NCBI RefSeq assembly: GCF_019145355.1
Contig: NZ_JAHSTY010000001.1
Span: 2,666,001 to 2,730,000, forward strand
DNA length: 64,000 bases
Origin: Pseudomonas azadiae
Lineage (GTDB): Bacteria > Pseudomonadota > Gammaproteobacteria > Pseudomonadales > Pseudomonadaceae
Direction: 5' to 3'
Below are positions 13,926 through 16,568 of this stretch, one piece after another. Numbering within the stretch: the stretch's first letter is position 1; each line of letters starts with the position of its first letter. Below the pieces are notes generated by a model. It saw nothing but the letters and a program-made list of their open reading frames with translations. It was not told the DNA's origin and made no database searches. The position numbers were made by a program, and so were the translations under genes.

Positions 13926-14672
13926 CTAAAGCTGCTGCATCATCTTGCGCACACCGGCGACATGCCGCCGGCTGACGATCAACGCGTCGCCGTTGAGACC
14001 TTTAAGAAATAACTGAAAGTGCCCCAGGGGCGTGCGCTGCAGGCGCTCGATTCGCTCGCGGGCCACCAGCGCGTTGCGATGGATGCGCACGAAGCGGTCG
14101 CCGAACTCATCCTCAAGCGCCTTGAGCGGCTCATCGAGCAGCACCTCACCGCCTTGGTGGCGCAGGGTCACATACTTGTGATCAGCGATAAAATAGACCA
14201 CCTCTCCCAGGGGGATCAATTCAATGCCTTTGCGTGTGCGCGCGCTGATATGGCTGCGCGGCCCATTACCACTTTGGGCGGCGGGCTGAGTCAGGGCGGC
14301 GAGCTGGACGCGGGTTGGGCGCTCGGCTTTTTTCAAGGCCTTGAGCAAGGCATCGCCAGCCACCGGCTTGGTGAGGAAACTGACACCGCTGGCTTCCAGC
14401 GTCTGCGCGGGAAACTCGTCAGTCGCGGCACAAAAGACCACGGCCGGCGGCGACTCTCGCTCGCTCAGTCGGGCGGCAACTTGCAAGCCATCAAGACCAG
14501 GCATACGGATATCAAGCAACACCACATCCGGCTTGAGGCTGTCGATCAGCGTCAACGCCTCTTCGCCCGTGGTGGCGCTTGGCTCCAATACGGTATAACC
14601 CTCGATTTCACTGACTGAACGACTCAGTCGCTCGCGGGCTTGGGGTTCGTCATCAACGATCAGGACATTCAT
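13926..14672 (-). CDS. algR: AlgR, LytTR-type response regulator
   Basis: ATG at 14672 gives 248 residues, the same as P. aeruginosa AlgR. The receiver domain (1-120) has acidic residues D8-D9, the phospho-acceptor Asp54 in LLDIRMPGLDG and a Lys in FLTKPVAG. The C-terminal LytTR DNA-binding domain (about 140-245) contains RTRKGIELIPLGEVVYFIADHKYVTLR and RFVRIHRNALVA. AlgR controls alginate, twitching and virulence genes in P. aeruginosa with the kinase AlgZ/FimS. Here the gene looks intact, but the upstream algZ is a relic; the ATGA overlap between the algZ stop and the algR start survives. Confidence 0.95.
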   Translation of the reverse strand: MNVLIVDDEPQARERLSRSVSEIEGYTVLEPSATTGEEALTLIDSLKPDVVLLDIRMPGLDGLQVAARLSERESPPAVVFCAATDEFPAQTLEASGVSFLTKPVAGDALLKALKKAERPTRVQLAALTQPAAQSGNGPRSHISARTRKGIELIPLGEVVYFIADHKYVTLRHQGGEVLLDEPLKALEDEFGDRFVRIHRNALVARERIERLQRTPLGHFQLFLKGLNGDALIVSRRHVAGVRKMMQQL

Positions 14673-15130
14673 ATAGCGCTGGATTCCTGCGTGAGTCTCG
14701 CACAAGGATAGCGTAGACAGGTGCGGTGACTTGCGTCACAGCGATCCACGCTAAGACTGGCGCGAGCGGCAAAAAGTGCCCTGAGAGTGGCACCCATGTT
14801 TACCCGGACCTGTTCAATAGCGCCCAAGACCTGCTGTCTTCGGGCATCGTCGTAGGGTTTGCTGATACACAATCCGAATCCCCCCCTTTTCAATGGATAG
14901 TCTGGGCTCTGACCGCACCACCTGACTTTGGTGCATTCAAACACGGTCAGTCCAACTGTAGACGCTCGCTGAGACGACATTGCTCAATCGACAAATAAGG
15001 TTTCAATAAGCACCCGCGCCCAGTCTCGTCCTGGACGCGTCCGGCGGCAAGGCACTTAGCCATCCTTTGCGCAAATAAAATGCCGACAACCCACAGCGCC
15101 GCCTTCCCAGGCAACCCTGTTATTATCGAC
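14669..15130 (-). pseudogene. algZ: Decayed remnant of algZ (fimS) sensor histidine kinase gene
   Basis: No intact gene is open between algR and argH, where algZ stands in related genomes, but pieces of an AlgZ-like C-terminal half can be read on the minus strand. From about 15130 one frame reads [11 protein letters not shown] and then PYLSIEQCRLSERLQLD, stopped by TGA at 14947-14949 where the family has Trp. A second frame continues with GGFGLCISKPYDDARRQQ, LRALFAARASLSVDR and TCLRYPCARLTQESSAI. It stops in an ATGA overlap with algR. The N-terminal membrane part, the HFLFN phospho-histidine box and the segment around the ATP lid are absent. About 460 of an expected ~1,070 bases remain. The match is from memory of the family; an alignment would settle it. 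Confidence 0.78.
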
Positions 15131-15173
15131 GGCACACTTCCCTGTCTCTTATAAGCACATCACGAGCGAATCC

Positions 15174-16568
15174 ATGAGCACCGACAAGACCAACCAGTCC
15201 TGGGGCGGCCGCTTCAGTGAACCCGTCGACGCCTTCGTCGCCCGCTTCACCGCCTCCGTCACCTTCGACCAGCGCCTGTACCGCCATGACATCATGGGCT
15301 CCATCGCCCACGCGACGATGCTGGCCAAGGTCGGCGTGCTGACCGACGCCGAGCGCGACAGCATCATCGACGGCCTGACCACTATCCGTGGCGAGATCGA
15401 AGCCGGCACGTTCGACTGGCGCGTCGACCTGGAAGACGTGCACATGAACATCGAAGCCCGCCTCACCGACCGCATCGGTGTGACCGGCAAGAAGCTGCAC
15501 ACCGGCCGTAGCCGCAACGACCAGGTGGCGACCGATATCCGCCTGTGGCTGCGTGACGAAATCGACCTGATCCTGGCCGAAATCACCCGCCTGCAAAAAG
15601 GCCTGCTGGAACAGGCCGAGCGTGAAGCGGACACCATCATGCCAGGCTTCACTCATTTGCAGACCGCGCAGCCTGTGACATTCGGTCACCATTTGCTGGC
15701 CTGGTTCGAGATGCTCAGCCGCGACTACGAGCGCCTGGTGGACTGCCGCAAGCGCGCCAACCGCATGCCGCTCGGCAGCGCCGCGCTGGCCGGCACCACC
15801 TACCCGATCGACCGCGAATACACCGCGCAACTGCTGGGCTTTGACGCCGTCGGCGGCAACTCTCTGGACGGTGTGTCGGATCGTGACTTCGCCATTGAAT
15901 TCTGCGCCGCCGCCAGTATCGCGATGATGCACCTGTCGCGCTTCTCCGAGGAGTTGGTGCTGTGGACCAGCGCGCAGTTCCAGTTCATCGACTTGCCGGA
16001 CCGTTTCTGCACCGGCAGCTCGATCATGCCGCAGAAGAAAAACCCCGACGTGCCTGAACTGGTACGTGGCAAGAGCGGCCGTGTATTCGGCGCGCTGATG
16101 GGCCTGCTGACCCTGATGAAAGGCCAGCCGCTGGCCTACAACAAGGACAACCAGGAAGACAAGGAGCCGCTGTTCGACGCCGCCGACACCCTGCGCGACT
16201 CGCTGCGTGCGTTTGCCGACATGATTCCCGCGATCAAACCCAAACACGCGATCATGCGTGAAGCGGCACTGCGTGGGTTCTCCACCGCGACCGACCTGGC
16301 GGACTATCTCGTGCGCCGTGGCCTGCCGTTCCGCGACTGCCACGAAATCGTCGGCCATGCCGTGAAGTATGGCGTAGACACCGGCAAGGACCTGGCGGAA
16401 ATGAGTCTGGAGGAACTGCGCAGGTTCAGCGACCAGATCGAACAGGATGTATTTGCCGTGCTGACCCTGGAAGGTTCGGTGAACGCCCGTAACCACATCG
16501 GCGGCACTGCGCCGGCGCAGGTGAAGGCCGCTGCTATGCGTGGCCAGGCGCTGCTCGCCAGCCGCTAA
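15174..16568 (+). CDS. argH: Argininosuccinate lyase
   Basis: A 464-residue protein of the fumarase/aspartase superfamily, full length. It begins with the lyase N-terminus [21 protein letters not shown]. It has [13 protein letters not shown] (about 105-117), the TH pair in [10 protein letters not shown] (about 160) and the signature loop [20 protein letters not shown] (from about 281) bearing the catalytic Ser. It splits argininosuccinate into arginine and fumarate, the last step of arginine synthesis. It is divergent from the algZ relic and algR. Its upstream sequence directly abuts the decayed kinase gene. Confidence 0.97.

Follow-up and report, generated by a model that had tools for sequence, protein, structure and literature searches.

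A decayed algZ gene with an embedded promoter-like sequence upstream of algR in Pseudomonas azadiae, and the spread of kinase loss across the genus

AlgR is usually explained from Pseudomonas aeruginosa, where the sensor kinase AlgZ (FimS) phosphorylates it. Also known are orphan or atypical response regulators that function unphosphorylated. In P. aeruginosa, argH lies divergently upstream (PMC8787478; this and the papers below are cited from excerpts). Just before algR is a promoter read by AlgU, GCACTT-N17-TCTGA (PMC4064291). This region, PalgR, lies within fimS; both AlgU and RpoS act on it, and its transcript codes for no protein but AlgR, which is then mostly non-phosphorylated (PMC10134789). 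Phosphorylation of AlgR is needed for fimU and not for algD (PMC5790918), and the non-phosphorylated protein serves algD and stress targets (PMC5790918, PMC10134789). In Pseudomonas putida WCS358 the AlgR homologue is PprA (PMC4064291).

Here we describe the corresponding locus in a 64,000 nucleotide stretch of the P. azadiae genome (the window; all coordinates are positions in it). As in P. aeruginosa, there is a regulator of the AlgR family with D54 and a LytTR domain, argH is divergent upstream and an AlgU promoter, putative here, lies inside the 3' end of algZ (PMC4064291, PMC10134789). Unlike in P. aeruginosa, the kinase gene is a relic, the switch residue Thr82 and the alpha4-beta5 part of AlgR are changed, and a search of the window's genome for PilY1 gave no match. 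The regulator is, like PprA, an AlgR homologue, and the P. putida-type loci that we examined, other than WCS358, are likewise without algZ. These loci differ from the window in having a shorter gap between algR and argH and, in nine out of ten, a GAA-type promoter with N16 spacing. As in known orphan regulators, the partner kinase is lost and the DNA-binding half conserved; unlike in those, the full acid pocket is kept and the lost kinase gene survives as the promoter region of the regulator.

Remains of algZ between algR and argH

The algR gene (13926-14672, minus strand) encodes 248 aa, with a receiver at approximately residues 1-120 and a LytTR DNA-binding domain at approximately 141-248, these limits being estimates. 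It stands back to back with argH (15174-16568, plus strand), which encodes argininosuccinate lyase and is the fixed neighbour that places the locus; 501 bp separate the two. At this locus P. cedrina subsp. fulgida is the nearest relative with a name (AlgR 99%, argH and hemC 95%). For comparison we used a first set consisting of the best 80 of 542 confirmed AlgR relatives, in which near relatives are over-represented.

A tblastn search, using AlgZ proteins from loci with an algR-argH gap of intact length, found the C-terminal 76 aa of AlgZ in the 501 bp gap (14675-14902, minus strand; 66% to L016, the best query, E 1.8e-23). At E<=0.01, AlgZ matches were obtained in 38 of 42 short gaps, the window included, and in 0 of 210 shuffled gaps (five per gap, 3-base blocks). 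Further upstream in the relic, the piece PYLSIEQCRLSERLQLD (14950-15000, minus strand) is followed by an in-frame TGA at 14947-14949. This YLSIEQ..RLQLD piece aligns with intact algZ at the DNA level and runs into the TGA, a position occupied by a sense codon in intact relatives. The piece from GGFGLCISKPYDD to QESSAI is in a different frame, within an ORF at 14669-14980. The decayed 3' part of algZ (fimS), as recognised by tblastn and DNA alignment, thus occupies 14673-15000 on the minus strand in two frames.

Using tblastn, we found no convincing match to the AlgZ H box in the gap. A weak second segment with L044 as query (33% over 87 positions, 30 bits) nominally covers the H-box residues, and looks real only over the YLSIEQ..RLQL part. 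In DNA alignments with relatives the window lacks the N-box segment, and the membrane part of AlgZ is not recognisable in the relic. No PF06580 kinase was found in the 6.1 Mb assembly, which consists of three contigs and is rated 100% complete. The relic matches the AlgZ/FimS (LytS-type, PF06580) kinases in C-terminal pieces only. The gap is thereby confirmed to hold broken algZ/fimS remains and not an intact gene. The initial annotation, made from the letters alone, had proposed just such a relic, with C-terminal pieces in two frames, an in-frame TGA, the membrane part and H box gone, and several lesions that make the loss seem old. All of this holds for the multiply broken relic described here, from which the N box is missing too; the fragments align significantly with AlgZ, no second copy was found in the genome, and AlgR is kept as an orphan.

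The same annotation took the ATGA overlap with algR as a surviving feature. The overlap is present but carries no information, since the second codon of AlgR is an unvarying Asn and ATGA is seen in 42/42 kinase-less loci; L058 and L063 have it though the old algZ frame closes one codon upstream. A 103 aa ORF starting at 14980 terminates in the ATGA at the algR start, as it might if the relic still coded for a small working peptide or were translated as a leader coupled to algR. We consider this highly improbable, since neither the start codon nor the length of the ORF is conserved (in L001, the closest relative, this frame opens farthest upstream at a TTG, 67 codons away), a single open codon precedes ATGA in L058 and L063, and ATGA follows from the invariant algR codon in any case. 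That a normal algZ was broken by an assembly or sequencing error has practically no probability; no point in its favour was found, and similar relics occur in separate assemblies, namely in the 38 of 42 short gaps, window included, and in 38/38 further kinase-less loci (second set, below).

The sequence TATAAGAGACAG at 15142-15153 was considered as a sequencing adapter and rejected; L001 has a close variant at the same place, and it is probably natural. An Rfam search gave a single match, with E 0.72, far below the gathering score.

Distribution of the kinase across Pseudomonas

AlgR is found at E<=1e-60 in 395 of 398 genomes of the genus, and the three genomes without it are fragmented assemblies (560-880 contigs, 73-91% complete). 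A PF06580 kinase was found in 120 of the 398, and the remaining 278 gave no match. Among the first set, 79 of the 80 named loci have argH; the gap between algR and argH is 296-628 bp in 41 of these, 1175-1359 bp in 37 and 3376 bp in one.

A quick tree of argH and hemC was made with 79 rows, 42 without algZ (window included) and 37 with algZ, leaving out L068 (the 3376 bp gap) and L072 (no argH). Branch support is SH-aLRT only, and 26 of the 76 inner branches are under 80 and drawn open. On this tree the kinase state changes at least five times, and three of the changes are forced by well-supported branches. The tree count alone would allow either gain or loss; as the short gaps still carry algZ remains, we read the changes as losses. 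The kinase loss that was noted from this DNA is thus true for the window, but it extends well beyond one strain, with 278/398 genomes lacking PF06580 and at least three forced changes. Kinase-bearing L012, L016 and L079 are placed inside the fluorescens group (branch support 94, not starred), which suggests more than one loss within that group, or possibly a regain by exchange.

A second set comprised 80 stretches from 80 of the 398 genomes, with 37 kinase-bearing and 38 kinase-less loci usable after L087, which gave no algR, and four duplicates of the first set had been dropped. Its kinase-less loci were drawn from the best AlgR matches listed, and putida-type genomes are probably missing from it.

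A few genomes and loci stand apart. AlgR matches in G316, G388 and G232 fall well short of those in other genomes (best 1.6e-77, 3.3e-71 and 5.0e-68, respectively), and G232 has two of them, which suggests that algR is partial or broken there. Genome G378 has two PF06580 matches, and it was the stretch beside the one on contig C28 (L087) that gave no algR. L002 is recorded as Pseudomonas viridiflava p11.D4 but lacks algZ and sits with the fluorescens type on the tree. L027 (P. viridiflava p4.B4) carries algZ and sits among syringae-type loci; L002 may be misnamed. The frame ending at ATGA is short in kinase-bearing L069, L074, L076, L077 and L078, where algZ may end upstream of the overlap or be interrupted.

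Among the open-licence papers listed, we recognised none, by title, opening of the abstract or excerpts, stating that the P. fluorescens or P. putida groups lack AlgZ. It should be noted that algZ is also an old name of amrZ. An 'algZ' is given for P. fluorescens PCL1751 in an excerpt of PMC4599888, and it may not be the kinase. FimS/AlgR pairs are described for three P. syringae genomes (PMC2222644, also an excerpt), in agreement with the syringae-type loci here.

A putative promoter and leader of algR within the relic

The AlgU-type sequence GCACTT-N17-TCTTA is located inside the relic at 14752-14779 on the minus strand and ends 79 bp before the algR ATG; it is a motif match with a counterpart in P. 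aeruginosa (PMC4064291). It has the spacing of that sequence and a similar place, and is one base off the published -10 (TCTTA in place of TCTGA). Kinase-bearing relatives have TCTCA in 20 cases, TCTGA in 11 and TCTTA in five. GCACTT-N17-TCTKA has one match in the 64 kb, at this position, against 0.04 expected. The final 107 bp of the relic correspond to the AlgU-type promoter and the algR leader, including AGGAA (14684-14688, minus strand), the probable algR ribosome-binding site by sequence and alignment, inside the former algZ 3' end. By analogy with P. aeruginosa, algR would be transcribed from 14752-14779 in an AlgU-dependent manner.

The form G-ACTT-N17-TCT-A is found 79 bp before the ATG in 32/42 kinase-less and 36/37 kinase-bearing loci of the first set, and in 38/38 and 36/37, respectively, of the second. 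Nine further kinase-less loci of the 42 have the GAA-type variant with N16, and neither form was found in L059. Among 30 fluorescens-type relics, the 20-nt blocks of the promoter and leader (14673-14773) are the best kept, with conservation of 0.86-1.00. A second island reaches 0.81-0.82; values are 0.64-0.89 on the side of argH, 0.26-0.72 in the remainder of the relic and only 0.15-0.18 at 15014-15073.

It could be argued that the relic is merely slow to decay and that its conservation reflects chance or recent descent, as most of it is common to close relatives and its middle pieces are still recognisable (blocks 0.47-0.72). Conservation is, however, concentrated in the promoter-leader and the second island, with deletions and drift between them. 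The last 100 bp are also more conserved than fourfold sites of argH in each of 14 fluorescens-type comparisons (0.86-0.98 against 0.66-0.90) and in L041 (0.78 against 0.70). In comparisons with the putida group the promoter scarcely exceeds fourfold argH sites; over eight loci these sites are at 0.65-0.71 and the last 100 bp at 0.67-0.78, a small excess, and in L060 the promoter is the lower of the two. Since intact algZ genes, too, preserve the leader at silent sites, we regard slow decay as very unlikely.

The latter observation comes from 32 intact algZ genes, five of the 37 kinase-bearing loci having been dropped for a short frame ending in ATGA. At fourfold third positions, the final two blocks of 10 codons show identities of 0.83 and 0.77, compared with 0.36-0.47 for codons -90 to -41. 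Within the last 190 codons, the column mean is 0.72 for the final 38 and 0.50 for the others (one-sided p 0.001). The blocks with the AlgU -35 and -10 have third-position identities of 0.54 and 0.61, and the half with the H box (codons -190 to -131) 0.55-0.62, so that a clear excess is limited to the final 20 codons, which form the leader, and does not extend to the AlgU hexamers. For the -35 the codons used are informative; GCACTT is present in 36/37 intact algZ genes and GCA-CTT is in codon phase in 33/37, and CTT makes up 117 of 3405 Leu codons in argH and hemC of the same loci. Judged from these patterns, the leader appears clearly to have been under non-coding constraint before algZ was lost, and the -35, by its CTT codon, likely so. 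The initial annotation had described the relic as what is left to serve as the upstream region of algR. It is that, but not a passive one, as it carries the counterpart of the P. aeruginosa algR promoter.

Several smaller elements surround the AlgU-type sequence. A GTGAC-GCAA-GTCAC inverted repeat (14726-14739, minus strand) lies just downstream of the expected AlgU start, and GTGAC-N4-GTCAC is at the same place in 30/42 kinase-less loci. Its loop, GCAA in the window, is GGAC or GGAT in 16/42, which we take to resemble a GGA hairpin of the RsmA/RsmE type. The algR leader folds as RNA with an unremarkable energy (z -0.70), and folding energy by itself thus lends the hairpin no support. The sequence TCTACGCT (14710-14717, minus strand) fits the sigma-S -10 consensus KCTAYRCT and is a candidate RpoS element. 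As KCTAYRCT is no commoner than chance (two matches in the window, 5.7 expected), this candidate depends on its position and on the statement about PalgR in the excerpt of PMC10134789, and not on the motif.

A second conserved element, CGTCTACAGT (14955-14964, minus strand), is present in 42/42 kinase-less loci despite the broken frame, starting 150-368 bp before algR, and in 18/37 kinase-bearing loci. In intact genes the motif could be located in 29/37, of which 26 use the triplet CTA (0.8% of Leu codons in argH and hemC). We suggest it as a candidate upstream promoter or operator of algR, and by analogy it may correspond to the upstream promoter that has been reported for algR in P. aeruginosa. 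On the argH side, alignments show GGCAACCCTGTTATTATC (15110-15127, plus strand), a possible extended -10 element of argH, to be conserved in relatives, the block 15114-15133 scoring 0.89. A sigma-70 consensus scan of 14600-15300 found no promoter, and none at GGCAACCCTGTTATTATC either. A Crp/Vfr site was considered as a candidate reading of TGTGACGCAAGTCAC.

The AlgR receiver and the proposed mode of regulation

The AlgR of the window has the acid pocket and LytTR domain of its family and lacks the receiver signature of kinase-bearing loci. At ten receiver positions (7, 8, 54, 82, 83, 84, 92, 94, 99 and 102) it reads DDDAATLAFK; D7, D8, D54 and K102 are kept, and residues 82, 84, 92, 94 and 99 are Ala, Thr, Leu, Ala and Phe. 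The signature DDDTAHFVYK occurs in 36/37 kinase-bearing loci of the first set, the exception having Tyr84, and in 0/42 kinase-less ones. The positions were chosen after inspecting this set, and the second set, which served as their test, gave 37/37 and 0/38. Among the 80 kinase-less loci of both sets D8, D54 and K102 are kept in all and D7 in 79, while position 82 is Thr in 30, Ala in 46, Val in two, Ser in one and Met in one. In the putida-type loci Thr82 is kept, H84 and V94 are changed in each (84 is a gap in L080), and A83 is changed in all but L039. A PDB sequence search gave no AlgR entry that we noticed among the best 60 of 179 matches.

The divergence lies mainly in one part of the protein. 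Pairwise identity among kinase-less AlgRs is 0.70 in beta4, 0.53 in alpha4, 0.63 in beta5 and 0.66 in alpha5, as against 0.95, 0.93, 1.00 and 0.80 among 74 kinase-bearing AlgRs, segment limits being estimates. Beta3, with D54, is at 0.90 against 0.97 and alpha1 at 0.80 against 0.84, and beta2, alpha2, alpha3 and LytTR are similarly or better kept in kinase-less AlgRs. Within-group identity of residues 141-248 is 0.952 in the 42 kinase-less loci (window included) and 0.908 in the 37 kinase-bearing ones. The initial annotation was thus right that AlgR retains Asp54 and its LytTR domain, but the protein is not intact as it appeared to be, with Ala in place of the switch Thr82 and a diverged beta4-alpha4-beta5-alpha5 part.

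On a fixed tree, receiver branch length relative to ArgH and HemC is 2.16 without the kinase and 0.55 with it, and that of LytTR 0.48 and 0.63, respectively. Among kinase-less tips the ratio for the receiver comes to about 2.1 for the putida type, 2.8 for the fluorescens type and 0.9 for the two others. Relative to neighbouring genes the receiver hence evolves about four times faster without the kinase, and LytTR does not. In close pairs (20 kinase-less and 17 kinase-bearing, picked greedily by dS with no shared locus, though tree paths may overlap) the median receiver dN/dS is 0.10 without and 0.06 with the kinase (one-sided p 0.0499), and for LytTR 0.02 and 0.05 (two-sided p 0.02). The dN/dS estimate that had been proposed for algR reveals purifying selection; the effect of kinase loss on the receiver is strong in the tree lengths and borderline in the pair test. 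A median of 0.10 is far below 1, so the receiver is under selection for something.

We consider it probable that AlgR is here a stand-alone regulator, dosed by an AlgU/RpoS promoter and with its phospho-switch decoupled, whose kinase gene was lost long ago. In brief, algZ would have been lost in ancestors of the window's Pseudomonas, and separately in other branches, and its 3' end would have been retained because the internal algR promoter (PalgR) and leader had been part of it for a long time. AlgR would now be made from this promoter through AlgU, and probably through RpoS too, and work without a kinase, control being mainly by the amount made under envelope or oxidative stress and not by phosphorylation. 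As the phospho-pocket is kept but the switch residues and alpha4-beta5 have drifted, AlgR probably acts like the non-phosphorylated form of P. aeruginosa, on alginate and stress targets; from this receiver drift we infer that it would regulate with D54 unphosphorylated. The phosphorylation-dependent pilus output would have been given up.

Two ALGX-domain genes, 4.3 kb apart, are kept in the genome, as expected of an alginate cluster. PilY1 is found in 116/120 genomes with a PF06580 kinase and 112/278 without (Fisher 5e-30, kinship not corrected), an association that is compatible with release from the pilus branch and only suggestive. With PilY1 kept in 112 kinase-less genomes, the pilus tip was not in every case lost before the kinase. 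The four PF06580-bearing genomes without a PilY1 match are G138, G185, G240 and G260.

The strict conservation of D8, D54 and K102 speaks against decoupling, as it is not required of a dead switch. Together with the purifying dN/dS of about 0.1 it would fit an AlgR rewired to another phosphate donor, be it a kinase of another family or acetyl phosphate, with an adapted receiver in which Asp54 phosphorylation matters. Alpha1 is a usual kinase-docking part of a receiver. It is little changed overall, though L11 is Gln in 20/42 kinase-less loci, and position 82 is Ala, Val or Met in 49/80. The receiver substitutions differ from lineage to lineage, which looks like release and not like one new fit. 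We therefore find rewiring unlikely, if still the most serious competitor of a decoupled switch.

Orphan regulators are already known; the more notable features of this well-resolved case are the old promoter and leader embedded in the relic, the common and recurrent loss, and a receiver released in its switch region. What this pseudogene has kept best is a promoter region that was embedded in coding sequence before the gene was lost. Constraint on the receiver fell with the kinase, and constraint on the DNA-binding half did not. With 278 of 398 genomes lacking a PF06580 kinase, the P. aeruginosa model of AlgR would not fit many other Pseudomonas. AlgR sites have been suggested upstream of P. 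fluorescens prrF (PMC13104616, an excerpt), and that suggestion would need to be read for a kinase-free AlgR. We lean slightly towards the broader view that repeated loss of AlgZ turned a two-component switch into a one-component regulator dosed by sigma factors, with the kinase gene as promoter region and the phospho-switch lost differently in each lineage. If true, the genus would offer a natural series of experiments on the uncoupling of a response regulator from its kinase.
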